Below are positions 3,301 through 26,168 of a stretch of 26,168 nucleotides of DNA, piece after piece. Source of the DNA: a virus. Numbering within the stretch: the first letter of the stretch is position 1; each line of letters begins with the position of its first letter. Position numbers and translations under genes: made by a program. The notes beneath the pieces are model-generated. The model saw only the letters and a list, made by a program, of their open reading frames with translations, was not told the DNA's origin and made no database searches. The stretch lies in IMG/VR virus record IMGVR_UViG_3300009285_000726, positions 1 through 26,168 of that record; one strand, 5' to 3'.

Positions 3301-5931
3301 GGGAGAGTTGGCGGTACAGGGACAATAAGCGCAGCTGATCTGGGGATAGACGTCACAGGGATATACAATCCTGACCGTTCGTTGAACGTAGATAAGTACC
3401 TGGCAGCTGTGGGGCAAGTAGATGCCGCTTTGCAGGCTGCTGGGATCACGCTGGACCCGCAAAAGATGGAGTCGTTCTTGCGGGGGCAGTCGGTACAGGC
3501 TACTGGGGCGACGACTATTGAAGCCCGACGACTTGGGGTGGAGGCGAGCGAGCTAGTAGCCCAGAGGGGCTTAGAGTACAATAGGCAGCAGATTCAGGTT
3601 GGGGAGATGCTCGGGAAATATGGGGAGAAAGACACTTTAGCCGCGACTCAGCAAAAGGCAGTGGCAGAAATCCAGCAGGGCACGTTGTCTTTAGACACAC
3701 AGAGGGAGCTTGCCAGACAGCGTGAGGAGGTAATGCGGCAGACAGGGAATTATACTGCGGTGATGAGTATTGACACCTTGATCCCTGGAGTGCTGAATGA
3801 AAACGGGACGGTAGATCCACAGCGATTTCTTGCTGGAGCAGATAGTTTTGTTGCAAATTTCCGGGCCATGAGTGGACGAGAAGCTACGCCGGAAGAGCTC
3901 GCAGCTATAGTACGCGGGCAAGTAATCACGGTTACGACGGGACAGACTCTGGAGAAGCAAATAGCGGATAACCAGAACGCGCTGCAGCGAGCAGAGCATA
4001 GTGGGCTGCTGTGGGACCCAGAGACAGGACAGAATCTTGATACGCTGAGGAAGCAAGACCAACAGTTTCAGCAAAGCCTTGCAGATCGACAGCAGAGCTG
4101 GGCTCAGATCATGGATCTGGCTCGTGAGGCTGGATACGTAAGTGTAGGGCAGAATGGAAAGCTGACTGCTAAGGATCTAGGGGTGGACGCACAGTTCCTG
4201 CGCAGTATGCCTGCAGCTGACCGAGTAACGACTGTCGAGGCACAAAGGCTAAAGGAGTCTTATCGAGCTATGACTGGAGGGGAGCTGAGCAGCCAACAGC
4301 TGAATCTGTTGCTGGACGGAAACGAGGTTCAGCTTGCGCAGCCCATCCGGGTTGAGACAGTAGAGGCAAGGGCTCAGCGAGAGCAGAGTTCCTTAAGTTG
4401 GAGCGAGTTAAGCGGCAAGATAGGAACCGCAAAGACTGAAGTCGCCCGTGAGTTTGACGCAACCTTGTTGGACAGAGGGAACTTAACGACTGCGCAGGTA
4501 GCACAGATCAACGCAGGGATTAGACAAGCTGATACACAGATAGAGCAGCAGTTGATTCAGTTTGCTGCAGAGAAGCAGATAGCTTGGGCTGAGTTGCTTG
4601 GGGAGGGATATGGAAATGGAACGGTGAACGCTGGCACGTTGAGTGTGACCCTCCCTGCCGGTCCGCCAGGCACGTGGTCAGAGGAGCAGCGGCAACACAC
4701 GGCGCAAACTCTGGCTAACTCATACACTGCGATGACTGGACAGCCTCCCACTCCAGCAGAAATAGCCACTATCATCAATAGGGGGAGCGTCAACGTTAGC
4801 AACGCTCCGACCCTTGCAGCACGGGAGCTGGCAGCTACAGTGAGCACGCAGGGCCTTGATCGACTGAATGACTTGCACAAGTTCAGTACCCAATTTGGCT
4901 TGGATGAGCGGAAGTTCACTGAAGCACAAGAAGAAGCCGACCGCCAATATGCTCAAGCTGCGACCCAGATTTCTCAGGCTTACGGTTTGGACCAGCAAAA
5001 GTTCTTGCTGGCTAAGATGGAGGTTTCAGCAAAGGCAACAGGCCGAATTGGGATAAGTGGAAACTTAAGTGCACAGGATCTTGGGATAGTCTTACCGAGC
5101 ACGCCGCCGCAGTATTTATCGAACGCGGAGCGAACCAAGCTGAACGACGATATTAGAGTGACGTTCACTGCCTTGCAAGGGCGTGCTCCAACAGCTCTTG
5201 AGATTGGGGCGATATCTGGTGGTTCGTCGGTGTCTGTGCAGGCACAGAGTACACAGGAAGCACGTGAATGGGCTGCTTCACAGGCTGAGGTGGCACGCAG
5301 ATATGGGCTGGACGAACGCCAATTCACAGAGGCCAGTAGTCAGTTTGATCGGCAGTATCAGACGAACGAAAGAAACTCGTGGCTGCAGCTGAACGGGTTT
5401 GCCAATGTGGACGCGGCCACAGGAGAGCTAAAGTATACTGGTGTAGCTAACGTATGGACTACAGAGTACAGAAAGTACAGCGACGCAAAGACAGAGTTCG
5501 AAAAAACAGAACGGAAGCGTGACGATCTCTGGCAGAAGGCCATCTACAACAGTATGGCGCCAGAGAACGTAACTCTTCAAGAGATGATACAGCGGGGCTT
5601 GCTGCCTAGCAATGCTCAGGACCTAATGTGGCAGAGTACATCCGAGCTGAACCAAGTTAATGCTTACTTCGAGGAGCGGACGGGCTATCGTTTGACGCAG
5701 GATCAGTTGGTTGCTTTGCGTGGATCGTACAGTTCAAGGGGAGGCTCGCTGGCGGGCTTAATCATTCCAAAGATGTCAGAGCAGGACATTAACGCTCTTG
5801 TTGCTATGATTAGTGGGCATGAAGTGGCAGTATCGCAGTCTAATCAAGGTAACGGCTGGATGCAACTTGCAGGAACAGCGATCGCGACAGCAGGCACGAT
5901 TTACGCTTCCAGACAGGGAGGAACACCATGA
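388..5931 (+). CDS. Giant Gln-rich repeat protein, putative internal virion or ejection protein (1847 aa)
   Basis: ATG at 388 lies 8 nt after GGAG of junction repeat 1. The protein is rich in Gln, Ala and Glu and almost entirely helical or coiled-coil. Residues about 270-415 hold repeats of roughly 30-37 aa built around LTG-x-F-x-G-K-x-TL. From about residue 420 on, a degenerate 65-70 aa module recurs about nine times (starts near 420, 526, 673, 829, 981, 1126, 1259, 1414 and 1561). Its hallmarks are (D/L)xGID, a DxxG-like loop, TPxQL, an LxGxxV segment and TLEAR, and the copies are separated by coiled coil. The C-terminus ends in a Gly/Ala-rich hydrophobic stretch, possibly membrane-inserting. 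The size, repeats and position beside two other large virion-type proteins fit a podovirus-like internal protein ejected with the DNA; a tape-measure or fibre role is the alternative. Its TGA overlaps the next ATG. Confidence 0.85.
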   Translation: MTNLYVSNATQAALGIPLGAKKKTPRQIIGAEDDPEEAALKAARNQALTRGMTAAVGGDLAASRAAALSKAGGLSFDRAGLEKELVGETEREAQEQRARLARQFGIDPGGAQSGTSQRAFENLESGVLGAKASIRTQLRQMEGEQQRANVGALAGVYSQMSERDLSVEAQRLQAVQAAGQALSQDEQNLLAAYQTVGQQGVAEQQVAIAGRAQTETESMGAAQRTQMVAQTGIAQRAQTETEKMGTAQRDQMAAVTELQRQAQNLDDEIRRAELSGDIRGKATLQAQRQELEAEIQRAQVEVQRGQLTGLFAGKQTLAAQAQTFAEGIEQARLTGTFNNLPTLEAAAQQVTLALQEAAATGTYQSKQTLQATLQDAQLELEEAGLTGKFAGQATLQKLLQDAQVALEAGQLTGTYGGGMVSLTTLGVDIKGLSREDAFFLVEDRLTRLGYLEGKTDDEKHDMVMTLLGGNQISIPGAQTLAAERQTADIEAQRAQTTLARARLTQEGQQFLTQVTGKVNAGMPVKAEDFGIDVTGAFDKTGNFTEAGIAAWLNLSDSLGVAGITLTPQQTKDIMHGRPVTAAVGTTLEARTQGAATSLQSRQLAQQKDLEQQRINNQKKIEEAQISGKLDDLPTLQAKQQEIDKTLRQVELRTQAQQFLTQATGKVNAGLAVSAQDFGIDTGGVFDEKGQLTSAGFDRYFELVDALTVAGLEATPTQLNSMLRGVPTNLAGPGTTLAARAQGADVALRGRQVAQQQDLEQKRINLQQEAQDNQKKIEEAQLSGRLNDLPTLQARQQEIDQSLRQIELRTQAQQFLTEATGKVNAGLAVSAQDFGIDTVGIWDEKDQLTTAGYDKYFQLADALNVAGMEPTDEQLKAMLHGLPVNLAGPGTTLAARVQGSEVASRQQQLDLQQKQLDLQQEQQDNQKKLAEAEISGTLNDRDTLAARQQQIDQQLKQIDQQMQQQRFLTEQTGRVGGTGTISAADLGIDVTGIYNPDRSLNVDKYLAAVGQVDAALQAAGITLDPQKMESFLRGQSVQATGATTIEARRLGVEASELVAQRGLEYNRQQIQVGEMLGKYGEKDTLAATQQKAVAEIQQGTLSLDTQRELARQREEVMRQTGNYTAVMSIDTLIPGVLNENGTVDPQRFLAGADSFVANFRAMSGREATPEELAAIVRGQVITVTTGQTLEKQIADNQNALQRAEHSGLLWDPETGQNLDTLRKQDQQFQQSLADRQQSWAQIMDLAREAGYVSVGQNGKLTAKDLGVDAQFLRSMPAADRVTTVEAQRLKESYRAMTGGELSSQQLNLLLDGNEVQLAQPIRVETVEARAQREQSSLSWSELSGKIGTAKTEVAREFDATLLDRGNLTTAQVAQINAGIRQADTQIEQQLIQFAAEKQIAWAELLGEGYGNGTVNAGTLSVTLPAGPPGTWSEEQRQHTAQTLANSYTAMTGQPPTPAEIATIINRGSVNVSNAPTLAARELAATVSTQGLDRLNDLHKFSTQFGLDERKFTEAQEEADRQYAQAATQISQAYGLDQQKFLLAKMEVSAKATGRIGISGNLSAQDLGIVLPSTPPQYLSNAERTKLNDDIRVTFTALQGRAPTALEIGAISGGSSVSVQAQSTQEAREWAASQAEVARRYGLDERQFTEASSQFDRQYQTNERNSWLQLNGFANVDAATGELKYTGVANVWTTEYRKYSDAKTEFEKTERKRDDLWQKAIYNSMAPENVTLQEMIQRGLLPSNAQDLMWQSTSELNQVNAYFEERTGYRLTQDQLVALRGSYSSRGGSLAGLIIPKMSEQDINALVAMISGHEVAVSQSNQGNGWMQLAGTAIATAGTIYASRQGGTP

Positions 5932-11238: not shown

Positions 11239-12404
11239 TATGTCCTCCCGCGGTAGAGAACGACCTTGTTTATCACGTCTATTTGGATTAGCTTTTGCTG
11301 CTCTAAGGCAGCCAGTGCCTCGCCAATCTGACTATGCGTGGCGTCGTTAGCGAACGCCACAGCAATGTCCGACACTGACAACTGCCCTGAAGCCTGAAGC
11401 ATGTTTCGCATTCGTGACTGGACGCTGGCTAGCGGATTCGCCCCAATCCCTGAAAACACAGATGGCATATCTTTCTCAACCTCGTCAAGTGTGTTAATCG
11501 CACGCTCTAGGTCGCATACATCTATCAGCATGGTTTCCGTGCGCGCCGCGGAGTATATCATGCTCAGCTTAAACAGATGGTTTGGCCGACGTTGGGTATA
11601 GTATTCCAGCCGACTATCTTTGAAAGGTGGATGGTCTTCCGTGTCCATCCGCCAACGTGCATACAGATCGTCAAAAGCTGTAGCTGTGCTGTATGGACCA
11701 TACAACAGATGAATCCGTCCAAGGTCGGCCAGAAGTAGTTCACCTATTTTCTTTTGTTCTTCGCTAAGGGTAGGCTTGACAACGATCTTGCCCTTCTGAG
11801 TAGCGTGCACAAACACGACTCTACTGGTAAACCCCGAGCCAATGAACCCTTGTGGGACAGCAGCTTGAAGCTGCGCTGGTGTAGTTGCCCCAATGAGGTT
11901 GAGCCAAACGTTCTGTATCTCTTCTCTTCCACGTGACAGTGTGTCGTAGACAAAGTGAGACTCACAGTCGTACAGCTTGCATAACATGGCCAGCAGCTCC
12001 ATGTTTTCATACCCAAGAAAGACGGTGAGCTCAGAACTAAACACAGTTAAACTTGAGTGGTAAATCGGCAGCCCGTTAGGAGGCGTAACCATGGCTTCAG
12101 ACTCAATCAGGGCGCGCACAATAGCTTGCCGGCTGGACTCGTCAGCAGAAACACGGATGCCTAGCTTGTCGAGAAATACCCTACTGAACCGCAACGCTGT
12201 CCCCTTGCGTGTAGCGGGAGTGCCGATTAGCACGACAAACATGTTTGGGTAGAAAGTCTCCGTTCCCCATTCAAGCCAACACCGCCGCTGAAGAACGCTG
12301 GCTATAGTAGAGATTGCCGCCCATCGGTGGTATATTTCTGGTGGCTCTGTGTTTTCTGTGAAGAACATGTAGCTATCAACCCAGTTCTCCAGCTGTCGAG
12401 ACAT
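11238..12404 (-). CDS. DUF3987-type P-loop ATPase, replication protein (388 aa)
   Basis: The N-terminus (NWVDSYMFFTENTEPPEIYHRW) and the P-loop variant GTPATRKGT (residues 61-69) are typical of DUF3987 / primase-helicase-associated ATPases of phages and plasmids. They are thought to act as the replicative helicase or its loader at the fork. Around residues 110-180 it has the conserved SSELTVFL block and a 'NLIGATTPAQL' strand. The last 60 residues look like a winged-helix DNA-binding tail. No primase domain is seen in this protein or elsewhere in the window. ATG overlaps the polymerase gene by 29 bp; a half-copy of the junction repeat (TTACGGAG, 12422-12415 on the - strand) lies just upstream. 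The family assignment is fairly secure; helicase activity is inferred. Confidence 0.82.
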   Translation of the reverse strand: MSRQLENWVDSYMFFTENTEPPEIYHRWAAISTIASVLQRRCWLEWGTETFYPNMFVVLIGTPATRKGTALRFSRVFLDKLGIRVSADESSRQAIVRALIESEAMVTPPNGLPIYHSSLTVFSSELTVFLGYENMELLAMLCKLYDCESHFVYDTLSRGREEIQNVWLNLIGATTPAQLQAAVPQGFIGSGFTSRVVFVHATQKGKIVVKPTLSEEQKKIGELLLADLGRIHLLYGPYSTATAFDDLYARWRMDTEDHPPFKDSRLEYYTQRRPNHLFKLSMIYSAARTETMLIDVCDLERAINTLDEVEKDMPSVFSGIGANPLASVQSRMRNMLQASGQLSVSDIAVAFANDATHSQIGEALAALEQQKLIQIDVINKVVLYRGRT

Positions 12405-14766
12405 AAATAGCTAGCTCCGTAAGAAGCTGCTCACGTGGAGCAGTCATTTCGTCGGCTTTCCACTTAAGCATAGACTTCTTATTGAAGGTGAATCCAAGCT
12501 CCGTGTCCACGGGGATAAAGAAGCTACGGTCTTTCCATGTTATCGGCGTCTCCAAGCTAGCCTTAACAAGCTGTATGATGTCTAAGGCAGCAGGGAGCCC
12601 AAGGCTAAGTGGAAGCTGATAGCGGATAGAGTCATGGATGGTATTGAGGAAGACTACAGGGGAAAACAGATCCTGACGGGAGTAGAGATAGAGCACCCCG
12701 TAGCGGTTCATCAAGTCAGCAATGGTGGATTGCGGAATGAATGAGTAAGCGACTTTGAACAGATCGAGCCCCCAGCGGTCGAGGAAAGTTCTACGCCGGC
12801 CAAAGCAGTTAACCAAGGTACGACTGTTTTGGGAAAGCTCATAACGAACGGAGGCATGCCACTCACGGATAGCAGGGTAGACACGATGGTAGCTGTCAAG
12901 AACGAACTTAGCATCGGATGCAGACAGCTGGTAGTACCGTGCAAACTCTCCAGCAGTGATATCGTAGTTTGCAGAGTGATTCCCCCGTTTTCCACCTTCT
13001 CTCATTTCTTCTGTAACAGCTGACATAGGGACGTTGTATATCAGGCTGGCAGTCTGCTTGTGGATATCTATGCCCTGCTCAAAGGCTGAAATCATTCGAT
13101 CTTCCCCTGAGACATATGCAACCACGCGGTTCTCTGCTTGCCCAAGGTCTTGGTTCACAAGGATGTATCCAGGGTCTGAGTGCATAAGCCTCTGCATGTC
13201 TGGCGGGACGTTCTGAAAGTTTCCCCCTGTACCCTGGAGGGTCTTTGAGCTACTAATCCTCCCTTGTGCGGTGCCTACCGGGTTGAACGAACACCGCATC
13301 CGGCCGTCCTGGTCCAGCTGCATCTTATAGTACGTCTCAAGCATCTTACGCTCGTGACGTAGGTTTAATATAAGCTGGGCTTCAGGAACTCCCTTAGAGG
13401 CGATGGCTTTAAGTGCCTTATCGTCAACGGTGACGCGGCCACCTTTGGTATGTGCACGAAGGCGCTTGTCTACATAGAAGTATTTCTGAAGCTGTGGACT
13501 GGAGCCGACATTTAGCTCTCGACCACATATAGCATTAAGCTGGGATTGCATCTTGCTTATTCGTTCGGAGCACTCTTGGGCAGCAGTGGCCATCCCAGCG
13601 GTGTTTATCCTAATACCTTTGTTGCCGGCGTAGACTAGCGGATGGATTAGGCTCTTCTGCTGGAGATATGCTGGCCAGTTGCCGACCCTGTGTAGCTCGG
13701 CTTCTTGCTGCGGCCAGATCTCCATAAGCACGGCTGAATCCATCGCGTTGTACCGACGAAAGATCTCCTCTGAGCCGAAGGGATTCTTGAACCACTCCTT
13801 TCCGTCGTCCTTATAGTAGGGTTCTCCATGACAGTAGACCGAGGTAAGAAAATCCAGCCCCTTAGGGAAGTCAGGGAAGAGCACTCCCTGGGCGACCATA
13901 GTATCATGAAGAGGATTGGTAACTATGTTGTACTTGCTATAAAGGAACGTGGCGTCAAAGGCAAGGTTCTGACCAATCTTGGTCACGCGGGGATTTTCAA
14001 GGAACTCAGCAAGAGCAAGCATAACCTCAAGCTCGGCATCTGGGCTCCAGTAATCCGACGCGCCATCAACGAAAGGAATACACATTGCGAGGACTGGGCT
14101 GGCAGCTAGAGAGATATGACTAAGCTCGTGCCCACGGGTCTCAATGTCATAAGCAGCAGTTGGTAACGTCCCGCAATGCCGAATGAAATCTAGTGCTTCA
14201 TGAAGACGTGGCTGGAGTATTAGCTCCCGTTGGAGGAGTCTAAGTTCAGGGAAATGCATCTGCTCTTTAGCGAGCCGAAAGGCGTGGGCAATGGGGTAGC
14301 GAAACAGGTACTCTCGAAGAGCAGCTGCTGGATGCACACAGGGCATGACTTTGCGACCACCAAGGACCTCACTGCGTAGTAGCGAGCCGCTTCTCTTGGT
14401 GATCGCGTGCTTGCCCGTTAGGGCATAGGTGGGAACATTGCCCAGGGTGATGATGAGGTTAGCCGTGGTCTGGCTTAAGCGGGAGATGAGTGCGTCCCGT
14501 TGTGTAATATAGGTCTGGCTCTCCTTGACACGGCTTGAAGAGAAGGTAATATACGGGGTTAGATCGTTCCGTTCTGGACGGAACTGGAACACGTTGTCTA
14601 GGTAGCATTGGTCACGCTGGATTCCGGCAGACGTAAGAAGCTGGTTTAGAAGACTCCCAGCTGGACCAACGAACGCACCTCCAAGGCGCTCTTCTTCGGC
14701 ACCTGGTGCCTCGCCGATTAGGACGAGAGAGGAGTTTACAGCGCCGGAGAGATACAGTGGATTCAT
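12376..14766 (-). CDS. Uracil-DNA glycosylase / family A DNA polymerase fusion (796 aa)
   Basis: Residues about 1-190 form a family 4-like uracil-DNA glycosylase: IGEAPGAEEERLGGAFVG matches the GE(A/G)PG...G.PFVG motif, and HPAA the HP(S/A) motif. Residues about 200-370 are a 3'-5' exonuclease (YDIET near 206, NLAFD, YNAMD). The rest is a Pol I-type polymerase with motif A as DLGQAENR (near 540), motif B as NHSANYD (near 596) and motif C as HDS (near 709). Tyr takes the place of E. coli Phe762, His that of Lys758, and Asp follows where Gly is usual. The four cysteines that hold the Fe-S cluster in family 4 glycosylases appear to be absent. ATG 14766 was chosen because AGGAGG lies 7 nt upstream; the frame is open further upstream but overlaps the 66-aa gene. 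Role: genome replication with in-built uracil recognition. Confidence 0.92.
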   Translation of the reverse strand: MNPLYLSGAVNSSLVLIGEAPGAEEERLGGAFVGPAGSLLNQLLTSAGIQRDQCYLDNVFQFRPERNDLTPYITFSSSRVKESQTYITQRDALISRLSQTTANLIITLGNVPTYALTGKHAITKRSGSLLRSEVLGGRKVMPCVHPAAALREYLFRYPIAHAFRLAKEQMHFPELRLLQRELILQPRLHEALDFIRHCGTLPTAAYDIETRGHELSHISLAASPVLAMCIPFVDGASDYWSPDAELEVMLALAEFLENPRVTKIGQNLAFDATFLYSKYNIVTNPLHDTMVAQGVLFPDFPKGLDFLTSVYCHGEPYYKDDGKEWFKNPFGSEEIFRRYNAMDSAVLMEIWPQQEAELHRVGNWPAYLQQKSLIHPLVYAGNKGIRINTAGMATAAQECSERISKMQSQLNAICGRELNVGSSPQLQKYFYVDKRLRAHTKGGRVTVDDKALKAIASKGVPEAQLILNLRHERKMLETYYKMQLDQDGRMRCSFNPVGTAQGRISSSKTLQGTGGNFQNVPPDMQRLMHSDPGYILVNQDLGQAENRVVAYVSGEDRMISAFEQGIDIHKQTASLIYNVPMSAVTEEMREGGKRGNHSANYDITAGEFARYYQLSASDAKFVLDSYHRVYPAIREWHASVRYELSQNSRTLVNCFGRRRTFLDRWGLDLFKVAYSFIPQSTIADLMNRYGVLYLYSRQDLFSPVVFLNTIHDSIRYQLPLSLGLPAALDIIQLVKASLETPITWKDRSFFIPVDTELGFTFNKKSMLKWKADEMTAPREQLLTELAIYVSTAGELG

Positions 14767-14795
14767 TACGCCCTCCTGTGTAGACTCTATCGACG

Positions 14796-14996
14796 TCAGC
14801 TGCATTCATTTTGCCGCCCCTCCTCTTGCCGGTAGCGCACGTGCTCACACCAGCTGCTGAAGTCCATTCCCTGCTTAGCCTTAGTCTCCTTTCTCTTGCG
14901 GGCTAGAAGCAGCGAGATGGCCGGAGCATGGTCTTCCCGCCGTGTAGGGCTAAGCTTAGCCAGTCGCTGGTCAATCTCCGCTATGGTTGGTTTCAT
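14796..14996 (-). CDS. Hypothetical 66-aa basic protein
   Basis: ATG overlaps the stop of the ParB-methyltransferase gene (ATGA, 14996-14993), with GGAGAGG from junction repeat 4 as ribosome binding site. The protein is short, charged and Lys/Arg-rich in its middle (LLLARKRKETKAKQG), with a Trp-Cys-Glu-His stretch near the C-terminus. No family is recognised. It lies between the methyltransferase and polymerase genes, so a small accessory role in replication is possible but unsupported. Confidence 0.7.
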   Translation of the reverse strand: MKPTIAEIDQRLAKLSPTRREDHAPAISLLLARKRKETKAKQGMDFSSWCEHVRYRQEEGRQNECS

Positions 14997-16420
14997 TTCA
15001 TCCTCTCCGTAACATCTTGGTACGGAGTATCCTTTGGGCCGTAGCTCTTGAATTCTTTCAGCTTTCCTTCCATGACCTTTCTAGTGAAAGTCGGCTTAAA
15101 CACATCCCCATGTATCTCCCAGCCGACCCCACTGCAACCAGCGTTGTTCACTGCCAGCAGTGTGTTACCTGAGCCAAGAAATGGGACTAACACACGGTCG
15201 TTTGGCGCGATGAAAGTGTCAATGATCTCGGTGAGTAACTCAACTGGCCGCTCCGTAGAATGGGACTTGTCCTCGCTAAACAAAGGTTTGAACGGAAACA
15301 CATTCGAATGGCCCGGGCGGCGCAGGGTGGCCGAGCCTTTGCTGGCATATATGAATGTCTCATAGCAGCTAGCCAGTGTAAAGTCAGGATTGTGGGTCTG
15401 TCCAGCAAAGTTTAGCTTGTACCAGATTGCTGGGGCGGGCCGTGGAGAGAAGCCAGCGGCTTCGAGCTTTTCTCCTACTGTGTCTCTCCACTGCCAGCTG
15501 CACCAAACAATGATCCAACTGATCGGGAATGCCACACGAAAGCATTCAGTGAACAGGCGCTCGAGAAACATAGGGTAATCAGCATCTGCAACCTCTGTAT
15601 AGTTACCGTGCATTCTCTCTGCACCCCTCTTTACATGATGTAGATCTATCCCGTACGGAGGGTCTACTTCGATCAGCTGGAAGTTGCTGGCTGGGACAAC
15701 TGGAACCCCCTCAAAGAAGTCTCCGCAAATGTATTCGTTGACCAGCACGCGCCGGACGTAGTCATCACCTTTTTCTGCAACAGTTTCCTCAAATTTCTTG
15801 GCTACTTTCTTGTCGTGATCGTGGCGCTCTAGTCGCTTAAGAGTTCGAAGGGCTTCACTTTTGGTCTTGGCCAGCCTTTTCAGTGTGTCACCGTACTTTT
15901 CTAGCCCCCGAGCTAGGTATCTATCTCGGCTTACAGACATGGGACTAACTTGAAGGATCTTCGCGGTATCTGCAGCTGAGTGCCCAGCGCTTGGGCCGGC
16001 CGCCACACCGAAGCGCTCAACTTGGAGTCGGTGAATCTGCTCGGTAAGCCAAACTTCCTCAGGCCAGGTAAGATCCGCGCGTTGGACATTCTCCATCAGC
16101 TCAATCTCTCGGGTGTCCAGCTCAGACAGGTAATCTGGATAAACGCGACAGGGGATTGTTTGGATCTGTGCGAACACAGCAGCAGAAAAGCGCCTCCCGC
16201 CAGCAAGCAAGAAGAAAGGCTTCGTGGACCCTGGAGGCTGGTGCTTGACCGCGATGGGCTGGATAACTCCGCGCTTTCGGAAGTCTTCCGCCAAAAGAGC
16301 TAGGTCCTTGTAGTTCTTCCGCGCACGATCTCCAAACTCAATGTCTGACACGGAAACGTTGAGTAGCTCTACTGGGGCGTTAGCTAGATCCGGTGTGCTA
16401 TTCAGGGAGGGAGTTTCCAC
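14993..16420 (-). CDS. ParB-like nuclease domain / DNA methyltransferase fusion (475 aa)
   Basis: Residues about 18-115 are a ParB/sulfiredoxin-like domain (GGRRFSAA; ENVQRADLTWPEE), followed by a helical HTH-like region to about 200. Residues about 230-455 are an amino-methyltransferase with DPPYG near 253 (motif IV) preceding FLGSG near 414 (motif I, SAM binding). This order is typical of beta-group N6-adenine or N4-cytosine enzymes. Such fusions are known from phages and mobile elements and are thought to methylate phage DNA, with the ParB part helping target it. GTG start 8 nt after GGAG. Most likely a genome-protecting or regulatory modification enzyme with no cognate restriction enzyme in view. 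Site specificity cannot be read from the sequence. Confidence 0.9.
   Translation of the reverse strand: METPSLNSTPDLANAPVELLNVSVSDIEFGDRARKNYKDLALLAEDFRKRGVIQPIAVKHQPPGSTKPFFLLAGGRRFSAAVFAQIQTIPCRVYPDYLSELDTREIELMENVQRADLTWPEEVWLTEQIHRLQVERFGVAAGPSAGHSAADTAKILQVSPMSVSRDRYLARGLEKYGDTLKRLAKTKSEALRTLKRLERHDHDKKVAKKFEETVAEKGDDYVRRVLVNEYICGDFFEGVPVVPASNFQLIEVDPPYGIDLHHVKRGAERMHGNYTEVADADYPMFLERLFTECFRVAFPISWIIVWCSWQWRDTVGEKLEAAGFSPRPAPAIWYKLNFAGQTHNPDFTLASCYETFIYASKGSATLRRPGHSNVFPFKPLFSEDKSHSTERPVELLTEIIDTFIAPNDRVLVPFLGSGNTLLAVNNAGCSGVGWEIHGDVFKPTFTRKVMEGKLKEFKSYGPKDTPYQDVTERMK
15005..15027 (-). repeat. Junction repeat copy 4, inside the 3' end of the ParB-methyltransferase gene
   Basis: Perfect arms CTCCGTA and TACGGAG around CCAAGATGT (read on the - strand). 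Unlike other copies it is translated: it encodes the residues YQDVTE near the C-terminus of the upstream protein. The stop then overlaps the next ATG, and the GGAGAGG that follows serves the 66-aa gene. Confidence 0.85.
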
Positions 16421-21235: not shown

Positions 21236-21633
<398 letters not shown>

Positions 21634-21859: not shown

Positions 21860-22579
21860 TCAGCCTTCCAGCCTTTTTATGCGCTCCATTGTAGCATGCC
21901 ACTCACGAAGGCAGTTCCCACAGCGCGAGCAGCTCGAAGCCCATGGCGTGCCGCAGCTATACACGTAGGGATTTGTCTGGAAGCGGGCCATGGTGTTTCT
22001 CCACATATCTGGGCGTACTTGCCAGTATGGATTGGTCACGTGGATACGATGCTCATAGCTGTCTATGTAGGTGTCGGGGATAGAACTTTTATCTGGGTAG
22101 CACACCCAAGTAAGTACAACAGGCACGGACCGGAGATTATATGTATAGTATTCCACGGCGGCCGCAAGCACCTCCACGTTCCAGAGGTTGGTTCTGAAAC
22201 GAAGGAACATTAGGTTGTCTGGAATGCTGGTTAGGCGGTAAAAGTCCTTGTCTGTCATGTCCCGGGGGTTAAGAGTGAGAACCACGGGCGCAGGAAAGGA
22301 AAGCTCAGGGATGGAAGTGTTAAAGAAACGGTGTGGATACCATGTCGTCTTGTGGACAACTGTGCTCCAGTCATTGTTTGAGTCGTTTCCGTCGTTCACG
22401 CGGACTACTTGGTCTGCACGAACCTTGGGCGGCATGTTTGGCTCTGTAGAATCTGGTTCAAGATAGCTGCCGCCGCTATAGACGAAGCAGTCGGCGCAGT
22501 TGTGTGGGCATCTGCCCCACTGGGGGATACAAGCGAGTAGGCCAGAGCCTACAGTCTTGGGATTAACACGATAAACCAT
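21860..22579 (-). CDS. Radical-SAM-like enzyme (239 aa)
   Basis: Cys24, Cys28 and Cys31 (CPHNCADC) make the canonical CxxxCxxC motif that binds the 4Fe-4S cluster and S-adenosylmethionine. The C-terminus has Cys209, Cys217, Cys220 and Cys223 (CxxCxxC ending GNC), a likely auxiliary Fe-S or zinc site. Strands such as PVVLTLN and VPVVLTW fit the partial TIM barrel. The start was placed at ATG 22579 (MVYRVNPK), behind GGAGAAAGGG; an in-frame ATG at 22627 would translate junction repeat 8. The length is short but adequate for a minimal barrel. Substrate unknown: nucleotide or tRNA modification or peptide modification are options. It is first in the moderate-GC leftward block, beside the GC-rich cassette. 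Confidence 0.75.
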   Translation of the reverse strand: MVYRVNPKTVGSGLLACIPQWGRCPHNCADCFVYSGGSYLEPDSTEPNMPPKVRADQVVRVNDGNDSNNDWSTVVHKTTWYPHRFFNTSIPELSFPAPVVLTLNPRDMTDKDFYRLTSIPDNLMFLRFRTNLWNVEVLAAAVEYYTYNLRSVPVVLTWVCYPDKSSIPDTYIDSYEHRIHVTNPYWQVRPDMWRNTMARFQTNPYVYSCGTPWASSCSRCGNCLREWHATMERIKRLEG

Positions 22580-26027: not shown

Positions 26028-26168
26028 TGGGGGCCTCCTCTCCGCGTGGGAACAGCCGGCTCAAAAGCAAGTCGCCCTGCCGTGCCAAGGCCGCGCTCCA
26101 GGCCGCGACCCTGGCCGTGCCCCTGGCCGCGCTCCAGGTCGCGCTCCAGGTCGCGCCCCAGGCCGCGC
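26017..26168 (-). CDS. C-terminal end of an Ala/Trp repeat protein (partial)
   Basis: Open from the window edge to TGA at 26019-26017, overlapping the LuxR-type start by 11 bp. The visible 49 residues begin with Ala-(Ala/Thr)-(Trp/Arg)-(Ser/Gly) units encoded by a 12-bp repeat and end with LARQGDLLLSRLFPRGEEA. It resembles the repeat tail of the DUF7666-like protein 2 kb away and may be the end of a paralogue. The other two frames (Ala-Arg-Pro-Gly, and Arg/Gly/Leu) are also open in the repeat, so the frame choice rests on the stop/start overlap and the Trp pattern. Confidence 0.55.
   Translation of the reverse strand, partial: AAWGATWSATWSAARGTARVAAWSAALARQGDLLLSRLFPRGEEAPNAR
26083..26166. 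repeat. 12-bp tandem repeat (about 7 units)
   Basis: Units like GCGCTCCAGGTC on the + strand are repeated about seven times with substitutions, running into the window edge. They encode four-residue Ala/Trp units on the - strand. The period differs from the 9-bp array at 23443-23676 although the encoded composition is alike. Confidence 0.8.

Follow-up and report, generated by a model that had tools for sequence, protein, structure and literature searches.

The gene on the minus strand at positions 21860 to 22579 of IMGVR_UViG_3300009285_000726, a viral record whose 26,168 bases we analysed in full (hereafter the window), encodes a 239-residue radical-SAM-like protein, P0001, that probably represents a large, previously unlisted family of radical SAM enzymes. 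This assignment draws on the open reading frame and its translation, on at least 132 IMG/VR stretches that encode relatives (found with a 69-row alignment), and on two AlphaFold models. The reading that best explains the evidence overall, with a probability of roughly 45%, is a radical SAM enzyme that carries an auxiliary metal cluster and acts on a nucleobase, a nucleotide or DNA. The parts of this reading differ in strength. Judging by the models, the radical SAM fold and chemistry are very likely for the family; a second metal cluster is to be strongly expected; that this cluster holds iron-sulfur rather than zinc is likely; and the choice of a nucleobase, nucleotide or DNA as substrate, drawn from gene context, is tentative, at a little under even odds. 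Were DNA or nucleotide modification indeed its function, the family would extend phage DNA modification and counter-defence by a new chemistry, with its recurrent partner genes as concrete candidates for a testable pathway.

Two conserved cysteine clusters

An earlier, sequence-only reading had placed a gene at these coordinates with a CxxxCxxC motif at residues 24-31 and a second, C-terminal Cx7CxxCxxC cluster, and both the exact reading frame and the two motifs are borne out. The frame runs from an ATG at 22579 to a stop at 21862-21860; AAAGGGA lies just 5' of the ATG as a plausible ribosome-binding site, and the start codon is consistent with the N-terminus of the relatives, M-x-Y-x-x-NPKT. 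The first motif, CPHNCADC (CX3CX2C; C24, C28 and C31; 22487 to 22510, minus strand), follows predicted strand 1, and its cysteines are the presumed ligands of a SAM-binding [4Fe-4S] cluster. The second, C209-x7-C217-x2-C220-x2-C223 (21911 to 21955, minus strand), is presumed to be an auxiliary [4Fe-4S] (or zinc) site. Across the aligned relatives, C24, C31, C209, C217, C220 and C223 are present in 69/69 and C28 in 68/69, patterns that lie far above chance. Spacing between the first and second C-terminal cysteines varies from 3 to 11 residues in the relatives, while the CX2CX2C portion is constant. The usual [4Fe-4S] ligand set consists of CX2CX2C cysteines plus one more, unlike the paired CX2C of zinc knuckles.

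The single exception at C28 is an archaeal copy (L041, 4845-5597) that adjoins RNase P p30 and has Cx8CxxxC instead of CX3CX2C. Another relative, at 10001-10801 of L034, bears a different cysteine-rich tail in place of the C-terminal cluster, and the canonical tail was not found in either of the remaining forward frames immediately downstream.

Conservation extends well beyond the cysteines. The most conserved polar loop, RVNDGNDS (residues 60-67; 22379 to 22402, minus strand), follows predicted strand 2 (E58-61) and takes the family form R-x-N-[DCS]-G-[NH]-D-S. Further invariant or near-invariant residues are NPK (6-8), R60-x-N62-x-G64-x-D66-S67, F85, N87-T88, T102, N104, R127, R129, N134, T157, Y161, Y175, N183 and Y185, and most of these are placed after predicted strands, the position of an active site in a barrel. 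Pairs of relatives with 72-85% protein identity mostly give dN/dS of 0.08-0.24, and one pair with saturated synonymous sites gives 0. P0001 itself sits on a long branch of the family tree, sister to L014, and deviates at otherwise conserved positions (A160C, R180H), with G at position 37 where most of the clade has R.

A predicted radical SAM barrel

The AlphaFold model of P0001, built on a 29-row alignment, has a pLDDT of 89.4 and a pTM of 0.88 and is weak only at residues 33-37, and that of a clade-2 relative (L094, 69 rows) reaches 94.2 and 0.91. Both of these divergent members are predicted to fold as a partial (beta/alpha) TIM barrel, CX3CX2C occupying the loop that follows strand 1. The sequence-only reading had named a structure lacking the SAM barrel, its cysteines forming zinc knuckles only, as the outcome that would speak against a radical SAM enzyme; a barrel is what the models predict.

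Foldseek alone returned no significant match in the PDB, its top rows being unrelated (a helicase complex, G proteins); its best viral matches were phage Radical_SAM proteins (probabilities 0.85 and 0.94), with E-values that are not significant. The radical SAM signal emerged only upon realignment of Foldseek's 1000 candidates with VIA-align 2, for which the stated Z background is 7 to 8. The leading rows were then all radical SAM enzymes, rows 1-27 for P0001 and 1-31 for L094, at Z 8-9.8, above that background, and the first rows outside the superfamily had Z 7.5 and 7.4. Viperin (Z 9.8, rmsd 4.0, 194 aligned) and NifB (Z 9.8, rmsd 3.3, 170 aligned) were followed by spore photoproduct lyase (SPL; 9.1 and 8.9), RlmN (9.1-8.3), QueE (8.4-8.9), the PFL-activating enzyme (8.1), SuiB (8.1) and TYW1 (7.7), with SkfB also among the matches. 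No radical SAM subfamily stands out, viperin being tied with NifB, SPL, RlmN and QueE. The return of one superfamily across two models weighs more than any single Z; the two are not fully independent because their alignments share rows.

Profile searches, a check that the sequence-only reading had proposed, gave the radical SAM assignment no support: neither PF04055 nor any other radical SAM profile matched P0001 (E <= 10) or 29 of its relatives (E <= 1). P0001 likewise had no match in Pfam, NCBIfam or PDB sequences and nothing significant among PHROGs (E >= 2). One relative does match PHROG 34815, which has no known function (E 2e-4); P0001 itself does not. The family also departs from the textbook CX3CXphiC at the residue before the third cysteine, which is mostly D, Q or E (D 46, Q 16, E 5, A 1 and G 1 among the 69) and never aromatic, the F/Y coming after that cysteine instead. 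An aromatic at this position and a PF04055-type match are usual for radical SAM proteins, not defining. Both departures could be taken to mean that P0001 is no enzyme at all and instead has a structural or DNA-binding role, binding zinc or iron-sulfur, with a CX3CX2C that is mere coincidence. We regard this as very improbable, given two confident models that land on radical SAM barrels with the motif after strand 1, and invariant polar residues disposed as in an active site. The radical-SAM-like character first proposed for P0001 is supported by predicted structure and by the invariance of its CX3CX2C.

The family can be compared with known radical SAM systems one by one. It had been suggested that the protein does not resemble the phage Gp37/Gp68 (DUF5131) proteins, which are likewise of radical-SAM type and of similar size; this holds, as PF07505 matched neither the gene itself nor any of 50 gene-bearing phage records, the window among them (0/50), and DUF5131 proteins are not known to carry a second cysteine cluster. 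The viperin barrel is the best or tied-best match for both models, and the viperin family is nucleotide-directed, acting on nucleoside triphosphates, but identity to the P0001 family is only 6-9%, there is no profile match, and the P0001 family is shorter and adds a C-terminal CX2CX2C cluster. NifB, QueE and SPL share the partial barrel and the CX3CX2C after strand 1 (Z 8.4-9.8), and the latter two have a nucleobase precursor (QueE) and DNA (SPL) as substrates. The P0001 family has no sequence similarity to these three and lacks their aromatic before the third cysteine, and their extra clusters differ from its own or are absent. The QueE likeness is one of fold, the NCBIfam model of QueE giving no match to the family.

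The SPASM/twitch enzymes (SuiB, SkfB, anSME; Z about 7-8) resemble the family in layout, combining a radical SAM barrel with a C-terminal auxiliary cysteine cluster. Such likeness to the auxiliary clusters of peptide-modifying enzymes, and the presence of the PFL-activating enzyme, SuiB and SkfB among the structural matches, would fit a radical SAM enzyme that acts on a protein or peptide, whether as an activase, a RiPP-type maturase or a modifier of host proteins. However, the family pattern, C-x3..11-C-x2-C-x2-C, is not that of SPASM/twitch, no Pfam/SPASM model matches, and no recurrent precursor-peptide or glycyl-radical-enzyme neighbour was seen, so that a protein substrate appears rather improbable.

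A family almost confined to uncultivated phages

The family became visible only gradually. Searched as a single sequence, P0001 matched nothing above chance in phages, plasmids, the PDB or the family libraries, and a single-sequence scan yielded a sole relative (L002, 48%); the resulting two-row alignment recovered 32 loci from IMG/VR and a 29-row alignment recovered 74. Contigs bearing relatives reach 548 kb. Among 50,697 phage records, queries from several branches of the family found none. Lacking a member in those records and a Pfam, NCBIfam or clear PHROG entry, the family escapes routine annotation, and we found no paper that describes it. The gene is single-copy in 50/50 phage records tested, and in one of them (G014) an insertion makes it appear as two pieces.

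Members come almost exclusively from uncultivated phages. Genome assemblies of Patescibacteria and archaea contain seven of the loci, and in at least three of these (L035, L040 and L041) the gene has chromosomal neighbours. A broad distribution across either phylum, Patescibacteria or the archaeal one, was considered and rejected, the gene occurring in 1/380 and 2/371 genomes, respectively.

Gene neighbourhood

In the window, the P0001 gene heads a same-strand cluster comprising a PD-(D/E)XK nuclease, an AAA_24 ATPase, a ParB-methyltransferase fusion, a UDG-polymerase fusion and a DUF3987 protein. The methyltransferase that the sequence-only reading had seen in this genome is the third of these, a ParB_N plus N6/N4 (N6_N4_Mtase) DNA methyltransferase (14993 to 16420, minus strand; identified by Pfam and by the placement of PF01555 in G000), and it is the window's nearest DNA methyltransferase to the P0001 gene, about 5.4 kb away. 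The fourth joins a uracil-DNA-glycosylase, a 3'-5' exonuclease and a family A DNA polymerase in one reading frame (12376 to 14805, minus strand; Pfam).

Elsewhere the association is tighter. One locus (L071) has the order ParB-methyltransferase, small gene, family gene and UDG-polymerase, the last with a short overlap with the family gene; its ParB-methyltransferase fusion, at 4556-5899, is like that of the window. The end of a methyltransferase gene coincides with the start of the family gene in L023, a D12 methyltransferase ends 3-11 bases ahead of it in L090, L091 and L094, in L015 and L060 its end is overlapped by a nucleoside-deoxyribosyltransferase-like (NDT-like) gene, and in L044 a dNMP kinase (DNMK) gene stands just upstream of it. 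In L035 (6500-9240), a contig from a Buchananbacteria chromosome, IMP dehydrogenase, the family gene and a downstream phosphoribosyltransferase run in one direction, and in Portnoybacteria (L040) IMP dehydrogenase is convergent with the family gene.

No conserved neighbour was seen in the first clustering, of 33 loci, and the methyltransferase link became visible only after loci beyond these were added. Methyltransferases of the D12, Dam, MT-A70 and N6/N4 types interchange beside the gene in 33 further loci, where DeoC and NDT-like genes are often present too. In a Pfam scan of 134 immediate neighbours, MethyltransfD12 is the commonest family (6), with Nuc_deoxyrib_tr at 4, Dam at 3 and N6_N4 at 2, and adjacency to D12 has at least two origins on the family tree.

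PF02086, PF01555 and PF05869 were searched across 50 whole records; at least one DNA amino-methyltransferase of these types was present in 28 and none in 22. Within the 28, the gene lies nearer a methyltransferase than under random placement (Fisher p 2e-6, or 5e-4 after collapsing related groups), in tests where records are possibly fragments and phage accessory genes cluster anyway. Shuffling labels within loci agreed: within 1 kb, 22 were observed where 10.8 were expected (p 1e-4), and 11 against 5.4 with groups collapsed (p 0.006). The same proximity test gave p 1e-6 for NDT-like genes, for which only Pfam-supported matches were relied on because the NDT2 neighbour cluster includes some HNH-like proteins, and several of the Pfam-supported matches score below Pfam's cut-off. 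Four unrelated types of DNA amino-methyltransferase are unusually close to the gene in many phages, and NDT-like, DeoC and dNMP-kinase genes recur near it. Two other candidate partners were rejected: DNA polymerase A (PolA) lacks proximity (p 0.19), and dGTP diphosphohydrolase (dGTPase) lacks overall proximity (p 0.34). No base-modification pathway genes, such as QueC/D, DpdA and similar, were identified.

Candidate substrates and a proposed role

Of the three kinds of substrate that the sequence-only reading had put forward (bases of phage DNA, tRNA, and proteins of the host), gene context favours the first, widened to a DNA base or nucleotide. Recurrent methyltransferase, NDT-like, DeoC and dNMP-kinase neighbours in phages point that way, as do the IMP dehydrogenase and phosphoribosyltransferase beside the rare cellular copies; together, the methyltransferases and nucleotide-handling neighbours suggest, but do not prove, that the family alters a DNA base or nucleotide.

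Two alternatives share the radical SAM chemistry. An enzyme acting on tRNA or rRNA, in the manner of RlmN/Cfr or TYW1, might keep translation working or change host tRNAs, and the placing of RlmN and TYW1 among the structural matches is compatible with such a role; no tRNA gene occurs in the window, and the neighbours include no recurrent tRNA or translation genes, DNA methyltransferase and deoxynucleotide genes being found instead, which makes an RNA substrate unlikely. We also think it unlikely that the family repairs DNA by reversing lesions as SPL does. SPL ranks with the best structural matches and UDG-polymerase fusions occur in the window and its relatives, but the SPL scores are tied with those of other radical SAM families, sequence similarity is lacking, and methyltransferase, NDT and DeoC neighbours better suit modification or salvage.

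For the preferred reading, modification of a nucleobase, nucleotide or DNA, a mechanism can be sketched. P0001 would be a small stand-alone radical SAM enzyme with a predicted partial (beta/alpha) barrel and CX3CX2C after strand 1. From what is known of the superfamily, C24, C28 and C31 would hold a [4Fe-4S] cluster that cleaves SAM reductively to yield a 5'-deoxyadenosyl radical. A second [4Fe-4S] cluster, bound by the C-terminal CX3-11CX2CX2C, could anchor the substrate or pass electrons. The substrate itself would be a nucleobase, a (deoxy)nucleotide or DNA. In phages, the enzyme would most plausibly either produce a modified base or nucleotide destined for phage DNA or modify that DNA itself, with parallel methylation protecting the DNA against host nucleases. 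One idea would unify these settings: the enzyme might act on a purine base or nucleotide, with the sugar handled by the NDT-like enzyme in phages and by the phosphoribosyltransferase in cells.

A bolder and more doubtful version, which we consider somewhat unlikely as a whole, holds that an undescribed, oxygen-sensitive radical SAM family uses two iron-sulfur clusters and makes a new base or deoxynucleotide, that it is central to a phage DNA or nucleotide modification route in which interchangeable DNA methyltransferases and the NDT-like, DeoC and dNMP-kinase genes work alongside it, and that the Patescibacteria and archaeal copies serve purine metabolism.

Several features of individual loci may be recorded alongside. 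An apparent DNA-modification island at 4168-8779 of L015 ends in the family gene and the NDT-like gene; it also holds a C5-methyltransferase-like reading frame, Dam and D12 methyltransferases, and a second, classical-looking radical SAM reading frame (CIRNCSFC). In the window, the region directly upstream of the P0001 gene (23450-23677) is a degenerate tandem repeat of 9/27/45 bases, open in several frames that encode Ala-Trp-rich or Leu-Arg-Gly-rich products. A six-base repeat at 21240-21277 encodes the Glu-Pro tail of a neighbouring 133-residue reading frame, and 12/36-base repeats occupy the right end of the record (26075-26168).
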